The notes under the pieces: generated by a model
Databases searched by the model: none
Seen by the model: the letters and a program-made list of their open reading frames with translations, nothing else
Told to the model about the DNA's origin: nothing
Shown: one piece after another, positions 642-45,526 of the stretch
How the letters are laid out: each line of letters opens with the position of its first letter
Numbering within the stretch: position 1 is the first letter of the stretch
Assembly: GCF_010725485.1 (NCBI RefSeq)
Contig: NZ_AP022598.1
Span: 1,488,001 to 1,552,000, forward strand
Direction: 5' to 3'
Origin: Mycolicibacterium parafortuitum
GTDB lineage: Bacteria > Actinomycetota > Actinomycetes > Mycobacteriales > Mycobacteriaceae
DNA: 64,000 bases
Program-made: the position numbers and the translations under genes

Positions 642-3045
642 CGTCGCCGCCCGGTGCGGTGGGTGCGCGGCGCTTGGCGGACCGGTGGGCGCCGGTCTCG
701 TCGTCGTAGGCCAGCGCGACGTCGACCGGGTCCGGCCGGGTCGGGTCGGCCTCGAGATCGGCACGGTCGGGCTGGCCGCGGAACCGGTGCCACAGCCGCC
801 GCCCGACCAGCAGCGCCAGCACCACTGCGCCGGTCAGCGTGATGATGAACAGCACCTTGCCGTACGCGTTGGAGTGCACCGACAACCGCACCGGCTCGCC
901 GAGCGGCAGGCCGTCGGCGGTGCGCAGCGCCACGTCGACGGCGACGCGTTGGGTGAAGTGCACCTCGATGGGCACCTTCAGCGGCAGGAAGCCGGGGGGC
1001 AGCACGATCTCACCCATGTCGGTGACGGTCATCCCGGGCGGCGCGTCGATGTCCAGCCGCACCCGGATCGGCACCGGCAGGTCGTTGCGCAGCGCCAGCG
1101 GCAGCGGGCTGCGCTCGGTGGCCAGCGTGTACGAGCCGCCGGGGTTCACGATCGTCACCGCGTCGAACAGATCCTCGACGGTTCTGCGCACCGTGGTCAG
1201 CCGCTGCTGGGCCAGTCCGTTGCGGGCGTCGGGCGGAACCGACAGACTCAGCGCGCGCAGCAGGTCCTCGCGCAGCGGGGCGGTGTACTGGTTGCCGGTC
1301 AGCCCGGTGCGCTCGTCGGTGGTCAGGGCGGCGGTGAGCCCCCACAGCCGGTTCGTCGCCGCGGCGATCCCGGTGACCACACCGTCGTCGAACCTTCCTC
1401 TCGGGCTGCCCAGCGGCCCGTTCGGCGGTGCCGACTCGCGCGCGGTGGTCTGGGTTTCGGCGATCACGACCGGCAGCGGCCGGGGTACGGCGAGGCGGGC
1501 CCGGATCGCGGTCGCGACAGCCGACAGGATCGCCTGCGCGTCCGGCGGGGTCAGGTTCCACATCAGCGGAGGCATCAGGATCTGGGTGCGCGGCGCGACG
1601 TCGGGTCGCAGGCCGTGCCACAGCAGCGAGCCGAGCGCCGACTGCAGGCGCGCCGCGGGTGAGTCCTGTTTGACGGCGATGTCGAGCGACGGGTCCACGT
1701 AGGACGGCGTCTCCGGGGTCGGACCCACCCCGGCCAGCGCCGCACCGACAGCCGGGTCGAACGGCGCGGCCACCACGTTCGCGGTGTAGCGCACCGGCGC
1801 GGTGTCGGCGGTCTCGGCGACGGTGTACTCGCCGTCCTGCGGACCGACCAGGTTGGCGGCCCCGACCGCGACCGTCGGCGCCTGACCGGACAGCAATTGC
1901 ACGGCCGGCGCGGTCAGGGGTCCGTCACCGACCAGGGTGAGCCCGCGGGTCGAGGCGATCCCGAGGATCTGGTCGACGATGCCCGCGGCCCCACCGGTGG
2001 CGATCGCGGACAGCCCCGGGTCGGCGACCCGGTTGAGCGCGTCGAGGTCGGCTTGGGCGTAGGTGGTCGGCGCGACGCACAGTCGCCGCGACAGCGTCCT
2101 GAGCCGGTTCAGCCAGTCGACGGCGGCCTGCTGACCCGCCCCCGGATGGATCGGGGTGCCGGGGCCCGCGTCGGCGGCGTCGTTGACGACGTAGCCGTTG
2201 GTCATCGCGTTGACGGTGACGAGCAGGTCGGGGTCGACGGCCAGACACAGTGCCTGCCCGACCGTGCCGTCGGGATCCACGTCCGGGCTCGTCGCGAAGT
2301 CCACCGCGCTGAGCATGGTGTCCAGCCGGCCACCCGGGGCCAGCGACGTCGCGAGGTCGTCGTCGATCAACCGCACCGGGGTGGTGCCGCCGGGAGCGCC
2401 CGCGGCCAGCCGCGGCTTGTCGGCAAGCGGCCAGAACATGGTCAGCCCGACGGGGCGGGTGGTGTCCGGCGCGACCGTGGAGTCCAGGGCGTCACCGGCG
2501 GAGTCCGATCCCTGTTGCGGGGGCACGCCGAGCACCGGCAGCAGGAACCGGGAATCGTCGAGCCGGGCCGCTGACCCGTAGTCGGGGGTGCCGTTGACGT
2601 TGACCATCAGGGGGTACACACCGGGTTCGTCGATCCGCATCGACGAACCCTCGTCGGCGCGCAGCGGATAGGCGAGCCGGAACGGGACCTTCTGCCCGCG
2701 GGCGAGTTCCGGTGCGGCGGTGATGAAGTCGGCGACGGGGGAGTACTGGTCGACGTTGCCCGCGAGGTCGGTGCGCAACTGGCTGGACGACGTCACGGCG
2801 CCGGCGCGCTCGAGTCGCACCACGATGTCGCGCACCGGTCGATCGCCGACGTTGCTGATGGTTCCGGTGACGATCACCGTCGGGTTGCTGGTCGTGGTGA
2901 CGATGTCCGGGGTGACGTTGTCGATCTGCACCTTCAGGAACGGCATCGATCCCGGCTGGGCGTACGCGGTCGGAGGTGCGACAGCGGGGGCGACGGCGAA
3001 CAGCAGCGCGACGACCGCGGCGAGCAGCCGCGCAGCGCGGCTCAC
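634..3045 (-). CDS. DUF6049 secreted/membrane-anchored protein (Rv3909 orthologue)
   Basis: Protein of 803 residues of unknown biochemical role, conserved next to murJ in mycobacteria. It has an N-terminal signal peptide (hydrophobic [19 protein letters not shown]), a long extracytoplasmic region with beta-rich segments, and one C-terminal membrane helix ([18 protein letters not shown]) followed by a charged cytoplasmic tail. The GTG at 3045 is the preferred start because it places the signal peptide at the N terminus and gives a GTGA overlap with the Nudix gene stop; a longer reading frame upstream is the Nudix gene in another frame. Its place between mutT4 and murJ suggests an envelope or peptidoglycan role, which is inference only. 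Confidence 0.88.
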
Positions 3046-3863
3046 GGCCCTTGACCGCAGCCGTTCGTCCTCCGGCCGGGCTGTTGTTGGGTGGTCGGAT
3101 CCGGTCTGTTCCTGCGTGTGTGGGAGTGGGTCTGGCCGCGCCGGCGCGGCGTCGAGTGGGGCAGCGGAGGAAGGGCGCCGGGGCCGTCGGTGTGCAGTTT
3201 GTCGATGAGTTCGTCGGCGACCTCGGCGAGCTTGCGTTCGTCGGCGTAGGCCAGCCGCGACGGCAGCTCCTTGAGCGGCACCCACGCGACCTCGCTGACT
3301 TCGACGTCCTCGTCGGAGAGCTCGCCGCCACGGAATCGCATCAGGTAATGGTGCACGGTCTTGTGCACGCGCCTGCCCTCGGTCACGAACCAGTAGTCGA
3401 TGCTGCCGAGCGCGGCCAGCACGGTGCCCTCGATCCCGGTCTCCTCGGCGACCTCGCGGATCGCGGTCTGCTCGGCCGTCTCACCCATCTCGATGTGACC
3501 CTTCGGCAGCGACCACAGCATCCGGCCGCGCCGGTCGATGCGCCCGATCAGCGCCGCGACCTGGTTGTCCTTCGGCCCGTCGAGCCCGTCGATGACCAGG
3601 CCGCCCGCGGACGTCTCGTGCACGGTGCGCAGGCGTTCCTGCGGGCGCCGGGCCCTGCTCTTCTGGGGCTTGGGGGTCTGGGCCGACTTGTCGGCTGCCG
3701 CCGGTTTGTTGGCTGCCGCCGGTTTGTGGGAGGACGAGCTACCCGAGTTCTGCTGCTTACGGTTGGCGGCCTGCTCGGCCCCGGCCTCGGGCGGACCTGC
3801 AGCGCGTCGGCCGCGGCGGCGCCCTCGACGCCGTCGTGGTTTGGCCTGCTCGCCGTCCGACAC
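3042..3863 (-). CDS. mutT4: Nudix hydrolase MutT4 (Rv3908 orthologue)
   Basis: Nudix hydrolase of 273 residues, expected to hydrolyse a nucleoside diphosphate-linked or oxidised nucleotide substrate; the exact substrate is not shown by the sequence. The Nudix box fits GX5EX7[20 protein letters not shown] followed by [11 protein letters not shown]. An unusual N terminus of about 90 residues is very basic and Ala/Lys-rich ([11 protein letters not shown], then [12 protein letters not shown] repeats), as in other mycobacterial MutT4 proteins. The GTG at 3863 was chosen because upstream codons run into pcnA on the other strand. Divergent from pcnA with 103 bp between the starts, and it heads the mutT4-DUF6049-murJ unit with overlapping stops and starts. 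Confidence 0.9.
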
Positions 3864-39953: not shown

Positions 39954-40107
39954 GGATGCGTTTGCGTCCCGCCCAGCAACGTCTAGCGTTGTCCGTCGCA
40001 GGGTTGGTTGCGCTTCCCCGCGGGGGGCTTGTCGGAGGCTGTGTCTAGCATCGCGACGGTAGCTTCGAACGTTTGTTCACATGCGATCGAGGAGGGAGAG
40101 GCGCCGC

Positions 40108-42420
40108 GTGGCTGTCGTCGATGACCGGGGTCGTCCGGGTGAGTACTCGGAGACGGAGCCGCCTCCCGGGGAAGACTTCGGGCGCCAGCCTCCGCAGGAT
40201 CCCGCGGCCGAGCAGGCCGTGCTGGGCGGCATGCTGCTGAGCAAGGACGCCGTCGCCGACGTGCTGGAGAAGCTGCGTCCGAACGACTTCTACAAGCCGG
40301 CCAACCAACTCGTCTACGACGCGATCCTCGACCTGTACGGGCGAGGGGAGCCCGCCGACGCGGTCACCGTCGCCGCCGAACTCGACCGGCGCGGTCTGCT
40401 GCGCCGGGTGGGTGGGGCGCCGTATCTGCACACGCTGATCTCGACGGTGCCGACGGCGGCCAACGCGGGGTACTACGCCGAGATCGTCTCCGAGAAGGCG
40501 CTGTTGCGTCGGCTCGTCGAGGCGGGCACCCGCGTGGTGCAGTACGGCTACGCCGGCGCCGACGGGGCCGACGTCAACGACATCGTCGACCGCGCGCAGG
40601 CCGAGATCTACGACGTCACCGAGCGCCGCGCGGCCGAGGACTTCGTGATCCTGGAGGAGATCCTCCAGCCCACGATGGACGAGATCGACGCGATCGCGTC
40701 CGAAGGCGGAGTCTCCAAGGGCGTGCCGACGGGATTCACCGACCTCGACGAGCTGACCAACGGGCTGCACCCGGGTCAGATGATCGTGGTGGCGGCGAGG
40801 CCTGGTATGGGCAAGGCGCTGAAGCTCGACACCCCGCTGCCGACGCCCACGGGATGGACCACGATGGGCGAGGTCAAGGTCGGCGACCTGCTGATCGGCG
40901 CCGACGGCGAGCCGACGCGGGTGGTCGCGGCGACCGACGTGATGGTTGGCCGACCCTGCTACGAGGTCGAATTCTCTGACGGGACGGTCATTGTCGCCGA
41001 TGCCGAGCATCAGTGGCTGACCGAGACGCGGGCGTCGCGGAAGTCCTCCGTCCGGACGACGCGCGAGCTCGCCGAGACGCTGGGTTCACATCATTCCGTC
41101 GCCAACGCCGCGCCCATTCAGGGCGCGGCAGCGGATCTGCTGATTCCGCCGTACACGTTGGGTGCGTGGCTCGCAGACGGGACATCGGCGGCCGCCCAGA
41201 TCACCACGGCCGACCCGGAGATCCTGATGCGGATCGAGGGGGAGGACCGCGGGCTGTCGAGTGCGAGCCTGCGGACGATCGGGGTCCTCGGCGACAAGCA
41301 CATCCCGATCGACTATCTGCGGGCATCGGAGGCCCAGCGCCGCGCGTTGTTGGCGGGTCTCCTCGATACGGACGGCACGGTCACCAACGGCGGTGCGATC
41401 CAGTACACCGGCACCAATCGCCGTCTGGTGGAGGACGTCGCCGAGCTGATCGTGTCGCTCGGGTACCGGTGCCAAACGATGAAGAAGTCGGTGTCCGGTC
41501 GTAGCGCTGACAGCTCGGTCGCCTACACGCTCAACTTCAGCACCGACGACGCGGTTTTCGGACTGCATCGAAAGGCTGTGCTACACAAGGAGCGTCGGCG
41601 CAGCACCAGCACCGTTCGGTCGGGCTCGAGGTTCATCACCGATGTACGCCCGGTCGCGAGTGTGCCGGTCCGGTGCGTCGAGGTGGACAACGAGGACCAC
41701 ATGTACCTGGCGGGGCGGTCCATGATCCCGACCCACAACTCCACGCTGGGCCTGGATTTCATGCGGTCCTGCTCGATCAAGCACCGGCTGCCGAGCATCG
41801 TGTTCTCGCTGGAGATGAGCAAGACAGAGATCGTGATGCGTCTGCTGTCGGCGGAGGCGAAGATCAAACTCGCCGATATGCGCTCGGGCCGGATGAGCGA
41901 TGACGACTGGACGAAGCTGGCGCGCCGCATGAGTGAGATCAGCGAAGCGCCGTTGTACATCGACGATTCGCCGAACCTGACGATGATGGAGATCCGGGCG
42001 AAGGCGCGGCGACTCAAACAGAAGGCTGACCTGCGCCTCATCGTGATCGACTACCTGCAGCTGATGACCTCCGGTAAGCGCGTCGAGTCCCGTCAGCAGG
42101 AAGTCTCCGAGTTCTCAAGGCAGATCAAGCTTTTGGCCAAGGAGCTGGAAGTTCCGGTGGTCGCGATGAGCCAGCTGAACCGTGGCCCGGAGCAGCGCAC
42201 CGACAAGAAGCCGATGCTGTCGGATCTCCGCGAGTCGGGATCGATCGAACAGGACGCCGACATGGTGATCCTGCTGCACCGGCCCGACGCTTTCGAAACC
42301 GACGATCCCCGCGGCGGTGAGGCCGACCTGATCGTGGCCAAACACCGTGCGGGACCGACGCGAACGGTCACCGTGGCGCACCAGCTGCACCTGTCGCGGT
42401 TCTCGAATATGGCGCGGTAG
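40108..42420 (+). CDS. dnaB: Replicative DNA helicase DnaB, interrupted by an intein
   Basis: Hexameric replicative helicase; precursor 770 residues, about 462 after removal of a 308-residue intein. The N-terminal collar domain shows QPPQDPAAEQAVLGGMLLSK and AVTVAAELDRRGLLRRVGGA. The RecA-like C-terminal domain has Walker A GMGK|ST (split by the intein), the VFSLEMSKTEIVMRLLSAE segment, Walker B LRLIVIDYLQLM, and GSIEQDADMVILLHRPDAF. Start taken as GTG 40108 (VAVVDDRGRPG), which matches the M. tuberculosis N terminus; ATG 40081 would add nine basic residues. The site LRESG|SIEQD, where the M. tuberculosis dnaB intein sits, is empty here. Confidence 0.96.
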   Translation: MAVVDDRGRPGEYSETEPPPGEDFGRQPPQDPAAEQAVLGGMLLSKDAVADVLEKLRPNDFYKPANQLVYDAILDLYGRGEPADAVTVAAELDRRGLLRRVGGAPYLHTLISTVPTAANAGYYAEIVSEKALLRRLVEAGTRVVQYGYAGADGADVNDIVDRAQAEIYDVTERRAAEDFVILEEILQPTMDEIDAIASEGGVSKGVPTGFTDLDELTNGLHPGQMIVVAARPGMGKALKLDTPLPTPTGWTTMGEVKVGDLLIGADGEPTRVVAATDVMVGRPCYEVEFSDGTVIVADAEHQWLTETRASRKSSVRTTRELAETLGSHHSVANAAPIQGAAADLLIPPYTLGAWLADGTSAAAQITTADPEILMRIEGEDRGLSSASLRTIGVLGDKHIPIDYLRASEAQRRALLAGLLDTDGTVTNGGAIQYTGTNRRLVEDVAELIVSLGYRCQTMKKSVSGRSADSSVAYTLNFSTDDAVFGLHRKAVLHKERRRSTSTVRSGSRFITDVRPVASVPVRCVEVDNEDHMYLAGRSMIPTHNSTLGLDFMRSCSIKHRLPSIVFSLEMSKTEIVMRLLSAEAKIKLADMRSGRMSDDDWTKLARRMSEISEAPLYIDDSPNLTMMEIRAKARRLKQKADLRLIVIDYLQLMTSGKRVESRQQEVSEFSRQIKLLAKELEVPVVAMSQLNRGPEQRTDKKPMLSDLRESGSIEQDADMVILLHRPDAFETDDPRGGEADLIVAKHRAGPTRTVTVAHQLHLSRFSNMAR
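40816..41739 (+). other. DnaB intein in the P-loop, class 3 type with LAGLIDADG homing domain
   Basis: In-frame protein-splicing element of 308 residues between Lys and Ser of Walker A; joining the flanks restores GMGKSTLGLD. It starts with Ala, not Cys or Ser (ALKLDTPLPTPTGWTTMGEV), and ends MIPTHN with Ser as +1 residue. The class 3 WCT set is visible: Trp in block B (ADAEHQWLTE), Cys in block F (VPVRCVEVDNEDHMYLAG) and Thr in block G (IPTHN). Homing endonuclease motifs are LGAWLADGT and LLAGLLDTDGTV, both with the acidic residue kept. It resembles the P-loop DnaB intein of M. smegmatis. Splicing should therefore start from the internal Cys. Confidence 0.92.
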
Positions 42421-42601
42421 GGGACAAAGCTGTAGGTTCTCACGGATCGCGGCGGACTCTGACAGGTGATGGCGGATCCGCCAGCCGCTTACCTGCGACC
42501 GCCGTGTGTGCAGCGCCTGCCCAGCCGAAGCCACTGACTGACAGCGCTGCCATAGCGCTGCATGGCGTGCGGTCGGAATCCGACAGCGCGCAAGGGTTGA
42601 T

Positions 42602-42886
42602 TCACAACGGATATGGGGGTCGGCCGGTGCCGCTGATCATCAGGTGTCCGTCAGCAGTCCGTTCGACGAGGCGTCCGAGGGCGTCGTGGTCGTCCATGCG
42701 CAACCGCACCGGCTCGCCGGCAGGCTTCACATGGTCGGGTGCGTCGAACACAGTGCCCTGCCAGTGATAGTGCCCGTCGAAGGGATTGACTGATCCCTTG
42801 AGGCGCACTCGCACCGCGTGCCGCGCCTCGCCGACGATCAGATCGGCCGCCCCGGTGTAGACGCCGTCATGGCCGACGGCACTCAC
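42602..42886 (-). CDS. DUF4873 protein
   Basis: Small protein of 94 residues matching the DUF4873 domain, a domain often found attached to or next to mycobacterial flavin or diiron oxygenases. It contains YTGAADLIVGEARHAVRVRL, NPFDGHYHWQGTVFDAPD and RTADGHLMISGTGRPPYPL. The GTG at 42886 overlaps the stop of the AurF-like gene (GTGA), so translation is coupled and the product probably serves that oxygenase. A longer frame upstream is the AurF gene in another frame. The role of the domain is not known. The 181 bp between this stop and the dnaB stop hold no gene. Confidence 0.78.
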   Translation of the reverse strand: MSAVGHDGVYTGAADLIVGEARHAVRVRLKGSVNPFDGHYHWQGTVFDAPDHVKPAGEPVRLRMDDHDALGRLVERTADGHLMISGTGRPPYPL

Positions 42887-43794
42887 AGGAAGTGGCTCCG
42901 CTTCCACATCCGGCGGGCCAACGGACCCATCAAACCCAACTCCTCCAAAAACTCGCCCAGCGATGCGAAGCCCAGCTTCTGCACATCGTGAAAGTGCTTG
43001 TTGGCCCGCGCTTGTCGTTGTGCGGCGGCTCCGTCGAGCCCGACCCGCTGATAAAGGCCGCGCCGAGTGAAGTTCTTCAGGTACAGCGTGGCGCCGAGCC
43101 CGTGCAGGTTCGCCAGGATCCATCGGGTACGCAACGGCATCTCGGCGACGTCGCGGCGGATTCCGTCACGCGCGAACTGGATGTGGCGCGCCTCCTCGGT
43201 CACGTGGATCCGCATCAGCCGCTGCACCAGCGGCTGTACTTCCTGACCGTCCTCCAGGATCCTGCGCTGTAGGGCGTCGAAGATCTCTTCGCCTACCAGC
43301 GCCGCGATCCACAGCATCGGACCGCGGAAGATGAACGGCATCGTGTTGACCGACCGCGCGTGACGTCCGGTCGGCCAGAACGGTTCCACCCCGATGCGCC
43401 TGATCGCCTTGCCGAACATGAGCATGTGTCGGGCCTCGTCACCGAGTTCGGTCAGGTCGTAGAAGGTGCTGTCCGCCGTCGGTGAGGAACGGATCATGCC
43501 CCGCAACAGTGACTGGTTGAGCATGTTCTCGAACCAGATGCCCATCGACAGGTAGTTGACGAGTTCGTGGCGCGACAGGTCGATGCGCTGCTGCACACTC
43601 ATCTGCTCCCACAGCCGCGTCCCGTACAGGGAGGACATCTGCGGCGGCAAGAAGTACTTGTCGTCGGCCAGCGGGGCGGCCCAGTCGATGTCGACGACGG
43701 GCTCGTAGGACTTCTTCGCTGACCCCTTGAGCAGCCGCACCGCAACCCCTTCCCTGTCGGGGCGGCTCACGATGGGGGCAGGAGTGGCGGTCAT
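42883..43794 (-). CDS. AurF-like diiron oxygenase
   Basis: Protein of 303 residues of the p-aminobenzoate N-oxygenase AurF family of diiron enzymes. Candidate iron ligands are in HELVNYLSMGIWFENML, ELGDEARHMLMFGKAIRR, LVGEEIFDALQRR and HVTEEARHIQFARDGI, giving the E...ExxH pairs expected of a ferritin-like bundle. The ATG at 43794 (MTATPAPIV) fits the family; a longer frame from 43881 lacks support. It is divergent from the PucR regulator with 113 bp between and coupled to DUF4873. The substrate is unknown; family members oxidise amines or hydroxylate small aromatics. Confidence 0.86.
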   Translation of the reverse strand: MTATPAPIVSRPDREGVAVRLLKGSAKKSYEPVVDIDWAAPLADDKYFLPPQMSSLYGTRLWEQMSVQQRIDLSRHELVNYLSMGIWFENMLNQSLLRGMIRSSPTADSTFYDLTELGDEARHMLMFGKAIRRIGVEPFWPTGRHARSVNTMPFIFRGPMLWIAALVGEEIFDALQRRILEDGQEVQPLVQRLMRIHVTEEARHIQFARDGIRRDVAEMPLRTRWILANLHGLGATLYLKNFTRRGLYQRVGLDGAAAQRQARANKHFHDVQKLGFASLGEFLEELGLMGPLARRMWKRSHFL

Positions 43795-43907
43795 GTCGCC
43801 ATTGTCGATGTCCAGTGGGGGCAGGGTCTCGCCCACAGCGGCTAATCTTTGGCGCCCGCATTGACCTTTTCGGTCAGTCACCCCGGGAGGGGCCCTACTA
43901 TCGCGGT

Positions 43908-45170
43908 ATGCCGGAAGCGCGCAGCGACGCGACGAGAACCGTCGAACTGCCGCTGCGGACGCTGGAGGCGATGCGTACCGGACTTCCCGCGCTCATCGAC
44001 CGGATGGTCGAAGCGGTCACCGCCGAGGTGCCGTCATTGGCCCAGGCGGCTCAGGAATCCTGGCGGCCGATCATCGACGCGTCGGCGGCCCAGCTGTTGA
44101 GTTCACTCATCGACGGCCTCCGCCCGGCGGCAGGCGCGGGTGCGGCGGTGCCGATGCAGGAGGTGCTCGACACCGCTCACCGGTTCGGCCGGCGCGAGGC
44201 CCGCAACGGTCGACCGCCGGAGGTTCAGCTGGCGGCCTATCGGGTCGGTGCCCGCGAACTGTGGCGCGACTGGAGTGCGCTGGCTGCTCACGACGGTGTG
44301 GACCGCGACCAGATCAGCGCCTTTGCCGAGATGTTCTTCGCCTACCTCGATCTGATCTCCGCGGCCGGAGTCGCGGGCCACGCCGAGGAACAGGCCAGGT
44401 CGGGTCTGGACCGTGAGCGCCGGCGCGAGCGCCTGGTTCGAATGCTGTTGGGTGACGCGACTTCCGGGGAACTCGACCTGGCAGCCGAGTACGCATCATG
44501 GGCCACACCGCGGACGTTGACCGCGGTCGCCATACCCAGCGCTCCGCAGCGCGGACGCGCCGCCGTCACGACGGATCCGCGCACGCTGCACGTCCCGCAC
44601 GACGCGATCGACTCACACATCGGTCTCCGGGTCATGCTGGTCTGCGACGTCGGAGGTGCAGCGCGCCCGTCGTTCCTGGCTTCCCTCAACGGGTCCGGTG
44701 CCGTGGTGGGGCCCGCCCGCGACTGGAAGAACGCCAAATCCTCGATTCGACGGGTGATGCGCGCTGTGCACGTGCGGTCCACCGACTCTGCGGCGGTGCT
44801 CGACACCGAAGAGTTTCTTCCGGAGTTGGTCGTCAGCGCCGACGCCGAGGCCCTCGCGGACCTTCGTACGCGCGCGCTCGCACCACTGGTCGATCTCTCT
44901 GAGGCGGCCCAAGAGCGGCTCACCGAGACATTGCGGTCGTGGTTGCTGCACCACGGGCGCAGAGACGACGTGGCCGCCGATCTGTTCGTGTCTCCGTCGA
45001 CAATCCGATATCGGCTACGACAGCTGCGTGAGGCCTACGGCGAGCGACTGCGCGATCCGCGGGTGATCGCCGAGCTGACAGTCGCTCTGGCAGCAGGGTC
45101 GGACATACAAGCGGGACGCCAGGTCACGACTCCACCGATCGAAGGAGAAGATCGATGTCCGATGCCATAG
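43908..45170 (+). CDS. PucR/CdaR-type transcriptional regulator
   Basis: Regulator of 420 residues. The N-terminal half is a helical sensor domain (AAYRVGARELWRDWSALAAH, FAEMFFAYLDLISAAGVAGH), the middle a GGDEF-like CdaR region (GLRVMLVCDVGGAARPSFLA), and the C terminus the PucR helix-turn-helix (LRSWLLHHGRRDDVAADLFV, SPSTIRYRLRQLREAYGERL). The ATG at 43908 is the start. Divergence from the AurF-DUF4873 pair makes that pair the likely target. The downstream SnoaL-like gene starts 16 bases before this stop, so both are co-translated. Confidence 0.88.
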   Translation: MPEARSDATRTVELPLRTLEAMRTGLPALIDRMVEAVTAEVPSLAQAAQESWRPIIDASAAQLLSSLIDGLRPAAGAGAAVPMQEVLDTAHRFGRREARNGRPPEVQLAAYRVGARELWRDWSALAAHDGVDRDQISAFAEMFFAYLDLISAAGVAGHAEEQARSGLDRERRRERLVRMLLGDATSGELDLAAEYASWATPRTLTAVAIPSAPQRGRAAVTTDPRTLHVPHDAIDSHIGLRVMLVCDVGGAARPSFLASLNGSGAVVGPARDWKNAKSSIRRVMRAVHVRSTDSAAVLDTEEFLPELVVSADAEALADLRTRALAPLVDLSEAAQERLTETLRSWLLHHGRRDDVAADLFVSPSTIRYRLRQLREAYGERLRDPRVIAELTVALAAGSDIQAGRQVTTPPIEGEDRCPMP

Positions 45171-45526
45171 CGAGGTTGATGCACCAGAACCTCATGGCGG
45201 TCTTCAATGAGCGCGACAAGGTCAAACGCAGGATGGCCATCGACAGCACCTATACCGCGGACGTGCGCTGGACCGACGCCGAGGGGGTCACCACCGGGCG
45301 CGAGGCGCTCGAAGCCAAATGCGCGGCGTTGCAGTCCGGTTTGGGGGATCTTCAGTTCGAACCGGACGGCTCGGTCCACGAGCTACCCGGCTTTGCCCAC
45401 CTCGCCTGGAAGTTGGTCAATCCGGCCGACGGGCAGATTCAGATGAGCGGCTTCGACGCCTTTCTCGTCGAGGACGGTCTGATCTCGGATCTGTGGACGG
45501 TACTCATTCCGCCGACGGGCGCGTAG
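45155..45526 (+). CDS. SnoaL/NTF2-like protein
   Basis: Small protein of 123 residues with the cone-shaped NTF2/SnoaL-like fold, judged by MHQNLMAVFNERDKVKRRMA, TDAEGVTTGREALEAKCAAL and HLAWKLVNPADGQIQMSGFD. Members are isomerases, hydrolases or binding proteins, and no catalytic residue can be assigned here. The ATG at 45155 overlaps the PucR stop by 16 bases, and GAAGGAGAAG lies directly upstream as a ribosome-binding site. Context links it to the AurF/PucR group. Confidence 0.8.
   Translation: MSDAIARLMHQNLMAVFNERDKVKRRMAIDSTYTADVRWTDAEGVTTGREALEAKCAALQSGLGDLQFEPDGSVHELPGFAHLAWKLVNPADGQIQMSGFDAFLVEDGLISDLWTVLIPPTGA

Follow-up and report, generated by a model that had tools for sequence, protein, structure and literature searches.

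A class 3 intein in the DnaB P-loop of Mycolicibacterium parafortuitum, most likely splicing-competent and with a homing endonuclease that appears to be in early decay

The DNA analysed here is a 64,000-nucleotide stretch of the M. parafortuitum contig NZ_AP022598.1 (positions 1,488,001 to 1,552,000; hereafter the window), part of a single-contig, 6.04-Mb genome that is 100% complete. Its dnaB gene carries a 308-amino-acid (aa) intein in the P-loop of the encoded helicase. The evidence makes it probable that this element is a splicing-competent class 3 intein of the DnaB-b type that responds to redox state and zinc, that probably no longer homes, and whose LAGLIDADG homing endonuclease (HEN) is at an early stage of decay. 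The insert is a member of the known DnaB-b (DnaBi1) family, and its class, its insertion site and the empty second site (site a) are not new. The modest new content consists of a decay series of the endonuclease and a correction concerning endonucleases at site b, for which no priority is claimed.

Insertion site, splicing domain and redox residues

The dnaB reading frame (40081-42420, plus strand) encodes a 779-aa DnaB precursor with the insert in frame, GTG at 40108 seeming a likelier start than 40081. By translation, the stop-free insert (ALKLDT...MIPTHN) spans precursor residues 246-553 and is flanked by GMGK and STLGLDF. With the last base of the Walker A Lys codon at 40815 and the first of the Ser codon at 41740, the intein interrupts the P-loop of DnaB directly after Lys and before Ser+1, which agrees to the base with the original prediction of a 308-residue insert at 40816..41739. 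Around the insert, Pfam detects the N- and C-terminal domains of DnaB, and within it LAGLIDADG_3 and Hom_end. The parts of the gene are as follows.

40081..40815, plus strand: DnaB N-extein, comprising the N-terminal domain and the first part of the ATPase as far as the Walker A Lys; matched by PF00772 (E 8e-34) and the beginning of PF03796
40816..41739, plus strand: class 3 intein, 308 aa, at the DnaB-b (DnaBi1) site
40816..41025, plus strand: N-terminal splicing domain, residues 1-70, with Ala1, Cys48, His65 and Trp67; phmmer to 6rix/6bs8 and VIA-align
41137..41328, plus strand: first LAGLIDADG half, residues 108-171, shortened; alignment with full-length relatives and models
41329..41601, plus strand: second LAGLIDADG half, residues 172-262, complete, Asp186 kept; PF14528 (E 4.6e-8), PF05204 (E 8.7e-6) and model
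41623..41739, plus strand: C-terminal splicing domain, residues 270-308, with Cys287, Val288, Tyr297 and Thr306-His307-Asn308; NCBIfam TIGR01443 (intein C-terminal splicing region) at 17.9 bits (cut-off 15.6)
41740..42420, plus strand: DnaB C-extein (remaining ATPase) from Ser+1; PF03796 (E 2.9e-97 for the whole protein)

An intein is assigned to class 3 when position 1 lacks a nucleophile and Trp B:12, Cys F:4 and Thr G:5 are all present (PMC5222942). The window intein carries this signature as Ala1 (codon 40816-18), Trp67 (41014-16), Cys287 (41674-76) and Thr306 (41731-33), followed by the terminal Asn308 (41737-39). The proposed class 3 assignment was upheld by alignment to the M. smegmatis and M. 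chimaera inteins, which put the block B Trp and block F Cys at the class 3 positions of the solved DnaB inteins. In a phmmer search against the PDB, the M. chimaera and M. smegmatis DnaB inteins were matched at E 1.8e-47 and 4.5e-45, respectively, which excludes a chance likeness. The splicing domain superposes on 6bs8 and 6rix at 1.1-1.8 Å with 68-69% identity, and both splicing parts taken jointly by VIA-align fit 6bs8 at 1.1 Å over 125 residues with 69% identity. Furthermore, Ala1, Cys48 (codon 40957-59), Trp67, Cys287 and Thr306 are invariant in 176 of 176 different DnaB-b inteins (108 from the genus and 68 from named genomes); the intein parser required an HN end and some Trp at residues 56-80, so that only the remaining positions are a free test of conservation. 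His65 (41008-10) is also present, and its equivalent belongs to a triad proposed for M. chimaera (PMC7664689).

The P-loop position corresponds to site b, where the +1 Ser doubles as the Mg-coordinating Ser (PMC6195587). The M. smegmatis DnaBi1 (Msm DnaB-1; 6bs8, 6own) and M. leprae DnaB inteins share this site, the class 3 residues and Ser+1 with the window intein. Both, however, are mini-inteins without an endonuclease (139 aa in 6bs8), whereas the window intein has 308 aa and contains a LAGLIDADG domain that is deleted in part. The M. chimaera DnaB-1 intein (6rix, 6riy), of the same class and close in sequence, likewise differs in being 145-146 aa long and lacking the endonuclease. M. smegmatis additionally possesses a site a intein, unlike the window (PMC6195587). 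This DnaBi2 and the M. tuberculosis DnaB intein interrupt the same host gene, but they are class 1 and sit at site a in motif H4 (PMC6195587). The M. tuberculosis-type site (ESG/S) had been called empty, and indeed no insert is found at RESG/SIEQDAD in the window (boundary 42240/42241).

The window intein is most likely splicing-competent. No second dnaB was found in the genome, the sole further PF03796 match covering only family positions 3-66 (27.5 bits, in a 484-aa frame); splicing would therefore have to work for the cell to replicate. It is thus highly improbable that the insert is a pseudogene-like, non-splicing remnant while another helicase serves replication, an explanation also opposed by the retained splicing residues and by the strong purifying selection on the splicing parts described below. 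A TIGR01443 scan of the genome for other inteins detected the DnaB insert alone. A PF14890 scan gave no match, but it also missed the DnaB intein itself, so this blank is no evidence on other inteins.

From what is known of the family, translation would first yield an inactive helicase precursor whose P-loop is interrupted by the intein. Class 3 splicing depends on the block F Cys and passes through a branched intermediate at that block. Cys287 would attack the Lys-Ala1 bond, the acyl group would then pass to Ser+1, and cyclisation of Asn308 would accompany the joining of the exteins and the restoration of GKS. In M. smegmatis DnaBi1, H2O2 induces a Cys48-Cys118 disulfide, zinc is bound by Cys118, Val119 and Tyr128, and splicing is reversibly inhibited by both oxidants and zinc (PMC6195587, PMC7360933). 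All four residues have counterparts in the window intein, which like DnaBi1 has Cys48 and the block F Cys (Cys287) and carries Val288 and Tyr297 in the places of the Val and Tyr zinc ligands. By analogy, a redox or zinc response is likely: splicing may be slowed reversibly by oxidants through a Cys48-Cys287 disulfide and by zinc through Cys287, Val288 and Tyr297. The suggested link to redox or zinc state therefore seems plausible; having been published for M. smegmatis, it is expected for the window intein rather than new.

Cys48 has been described as non-conserved (PMC6195587). It is Cys in every one of the 176 DnaB-b inteins compared here, and the same position holds Cys in four of six phage class 3 inteins examined, the other two having Ser and Thr. 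Since every Cys48 mutant reported for M. smegmatis DnaBi1 failed to splice (PMC6195587), the residue may be conserved for a part in splicing and not for regulation.

A shortened endonuclease under relaxed constraint

The two LAGLIDADG motifs had been predicted to keep their acidic residues, and both acids, Asp121 and Asp186, are retained together with the block D lysine, Lys161. The accompanying claim of an intact-looking homing domain was not supported. Compared with full-length relatives at the same site (403-417 aa), the first HEN half is 84 residues shorter, and the spacing between Asp121 and Lys161 is 40 residues in the window vs 124 in 36 full-length relatives. Alignment and model agree that this half lacks two predicted β-strands and a cysteine-rich insert, with the deletion junction near Asp144/Arg145 (about 41247/41248). 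The window model (mean pLDDT 93.2) contains no strands of at least three residues in the affected stretch, whereas the model of a full-length relative has strands at 158-161 and 168-172. In LAGLIDADG homing endonucleases, the core of each half has an α-β-β-α-β-β-α topology. The second half of the window HEN is modelled with exactly this helix-strand-strand-helix-strand-strand-helix order. Each of the two motifs has its catalytic acid and the block D lysine is in place, but only the second half has the full core. For comparison, PI-SceI, a class 1 intein with a complete first HEN half, measures 454 residues in its solved chains.

The full-length mycobacterial DnaB-b inteins (L110, L114, L116-L121, L123-L128, L130, L131 and L135) share the site, the splicing domain and the second LAGLIDADG half with the window intein and differ from it in their complete first half and cysteine-rich (CxxC) insert. 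This insert lies in the first half and resembles a zinc ribbon with several CxxC pairs; it occupies about intein residues 180-235 in L110 and is also present in L114, L120, L123, L124, L126, L130 and L135. The forms from Rhodococcus (L042) and Nocardioides (L054) have a shorter version. A Pfam scan of the L110 insert returned no domain, and we make no claim as to whether it is undescribed.

To describe selection, dN/dS was calculated as the ratio of mean dN to mean dS, dS being near or above 1 in the wider groups; L035, whose protein is identical to L007, was dropped from this set, where identical rows were merged. In the window clade (four different sequences, six pairs), the splicing parts gave 0.108 and 0.113 and the HEN halves 0.243 and 0.202. 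Eleven full-length alleles (55 pairs) gave 0.093 and 0.110 for the splicing parts and 0.133 and 0.103 for the HEN halves. In nine alleles of 270-293 aa, each having lost at least one catalytic residue, the HEN values were 0.280 and 0.240 and the splicing values 0.154 and 0.139. Thus, HEN dN/dS is about twice that of the splicing domain in the window clade and about equal to it in full-length relatives. The constraint on the window HEN looks relaxed, nearer to that of degenerate than of full-length HENs, though far from neutral.

Loss of the strands is associated with loss of the active site. Among 69 HEN-bearing rows of the genus, the acids and the lysine are kept in 37 of 39 with strands vs 15 of 30 without (Fisher 2.9e-5, relatedness ignored); among all 134 different HEN-bearing inteins, the catalytic residues are kept in 68 of 80 with strands vs 21 of 54 without (Fisher 3.7e-8, relatedness likewise ignored). 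This joint loss fits decay in successive steps, the window intein standing near the beginning. Combined, the truncation and the relaxed constraint suggest that homing of the window intein is probably lost or impaired.

The original prediction had taken the intein for a possible active mobile element. A HEN still intact enough to cut an empty dnaB site would be consistent with the retained Asp121, Lys161 and Asp186, with the complete second half, and with empty sites being common in the genus (51 of 138 genomes, see below) and interleaved with occupied alleles on the host tree. The missing 84 residues and two strands, the relaxed constraint with HEN dN/dS about twice that of the splicing domain, and the frequent loss of catalytic residues in relatives that likewise lack the strands make this unlikely. 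Instead, the allele would be carried mainly by descent and ordinary recombination.

Low dN/dS could also reflect a structural use, the leftover HEN being kept to stabilise or regulate the splicing fold. This possibility, compatible with a non-homing, decaying endonuclease, is in line with the low values (0.24-0.28) even where catalytic residues are lost, with the complete and confidently modelled second half, and with the recurrence of strandless forms (30 of the 69 genus rows, in a set enriched for HEN-bearing alleles). Nevertheless, 43 of 138 genomes have mini-inteins of 138-145 aa at site b, and in M. smegmatis and M. leprae such forms splice although they carry no HEN (PMC6195587, PMC5222942), so that a splicing role appears doubtful, if conceivable.

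Strandless forms with all three catalytic residues make up 15 of the 69 HEN-bearing rows and require 11 label changes on the intein tree, at least five of them forced by well-supported branches. It seems rather improbable that the shortening reflects repeated selection for a compact first half instead of decay. Were that the case, such forms could be nickases or short-site endonucleases still spreading the intein, or they could have been recruited to link the maturation of the helicase to the dnaB locus.

Site b across the genus

Because simple pattern searches (94 and 35 of 396 genomes found) overlook GVGK alleles, the counts given here come from a sequence-checked census of the dnaB regions of 138 genus genomes with a completeness of at least 95%. 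Site b was empty in 51, occupied by a mini-intein (138-145 aa) in 43, by an intermediate form (270-341 aa) in 16 and by a full-length form (386-417 aa) in 26, and was not callable in two (L230 and L251); 15 census rows are without a call at site a or b. One genome counted as mini (L252, G009) has an apparently broken dnaB N-extein frame, perhaps through a frameshift or an error of assembly, with a match to query 10-160 only, an open frame of 228 aa and an end branch of 9.64 in the N-extein tree.

A 2016 survey described DnaB-b inteins as lacking endonucleases (PMC5050341). The window intein, with its LAGLIDADG domain, departs from this trait, and 42 of the 85 occupied site b alleles are long enough for all or part of an endonuclease. 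Absence of an endonuclease is therefore an unsound defining feature of DnaB-b. Other actinobacteria likewise harbour relatives with a HEN at this site (named loci L039, L042-L047 and others). Class 3 inteins of 235 and 240 aa with degenerate endonuclease remains interrupt the plasmid dnaB genes of M. avium and M. fortuitum (L258 and L259, respectively), again at site b.

The host, N-extein and intein trees are quick searches, and the host-tree and intein-tree rows were enriched for HEN-bearing alleles by fetching, so that row counts are not frequencies; three rows without a parsable intein (L078, L105 and L129) were dropped and one cut at the wrong place (L009) was removed. The four site b states need 53 changes on the N-extein tree, and the label empty needs 34 on the host tree, where empty and occupied alleles interleave. 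Sister species can differ in state: a mini stands next to a full-length form in the pair L142 and L143, and an intermediate next to a full-length form in L122 and L123. In contrast, 42 minis need only two label changes on the splicing-domain tree vs 24 on the host tree. From this, the mini-inteins look like a single ancient lineage dispersed across hosts; with 327 columns and a quick search, however, convergence is still conceivable.

The Lys(-1) codon (40813-40815 in the window) is AAG in 76 of 84 occupied vs 22 of 51 empty alleles (Fisher 4e-9; L252 was left out of this analysis). A sign test on independent pairs gave a median p of 0.125, and 0.0625 for HEN-bearing vs empty alleles; as a footprint of homing or co-conversion, this is suggestive only. 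A site a intein accompanies none of 37 callable HEN-bearing site b alleles, 26 of 42 minis and 8 of 44 empty sites. Mutual exclusion of a HEN-bearing site b and a site a intein was not significant on tree-independent pairs (at most four informative per draw) and was rejected.

At one fixed site in an essential gene, a single genus thus presents the empty, full-length, partly deleted and mini stages. Such matched alleles make the order of endonuclease decay testable, as well as benefit vs inertia in the persistence of HEN-less forms, and they allow the mini-intein redox/zinc switch to be compared across forms with and without a HEN.

Near relatives, phage inteins and recombination

Mycobacteriophage and actinophage class 3 inteins (in TerL, exonuclease and DnaB-like hosts) combine, like the window intein, class 3 with a LAGLIDADG HEN. 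All 744 phage records with a match are less than 60% identical to the window intein. The top-ranked match (42.8% identity), in the DnaB-like helicase of Brevibacterium phage Rousseau, also lies after a Walker A GK; the other 39 matches listed lie in other host genes. In Rousseau (L215), the class 3 intein spans 2001-3059 and is followed by Thr at +1.

In the contig scan, from which the window's own species may be absent, the closest named relative is M. parafortuitum CCUG 20999 (L034), with 94% intein identity. G027 is 97.7% identical to the window over 19.5 kb. The alleles of near relatives are intermediate in G027, G139 and G385, full-length in G037 and G217, and empty in G141. The window intein groups with those of G027 and G139 in a single clade (100/99), and between the window and G139 the intein is 82.9% identical vs 90.5 and 91.0% for the two exteins. 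This clade and the faster divergence of the intein are consistent with descent of the truncated allele within the group.

The window, G027, G139 and G385 share the 40-residue Asp121-Lys161 spacing. A single deletion origin in these four was considered and dropped. Although they match in spacing and in the residues at the junction, the 69-row intein tree pairs the G385 intein with the full-length one of G037, a pairing not resolved in the 13-row tree; the shared form may thus go back either to one deletion followed by recombination or to two separate deletions.

A recent replacement of the intein alone between the window and G027 was also dropped, some upstream stretches being as divergent as the intein. 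The two differ at 51 columns of 924 intein bases and at 257 of 9313 upstream bases, with the lowest upstream 300-base bin at 92.7%. Window 41656-45217 forms a near-identical tract with G027 (L260), with six differences in 41740-45500. The tract starts within the last 28 intein codons, while the upstream DNA differs by 2.8% and the intein by 5.5%; its start is a recombination edge inside the intein.
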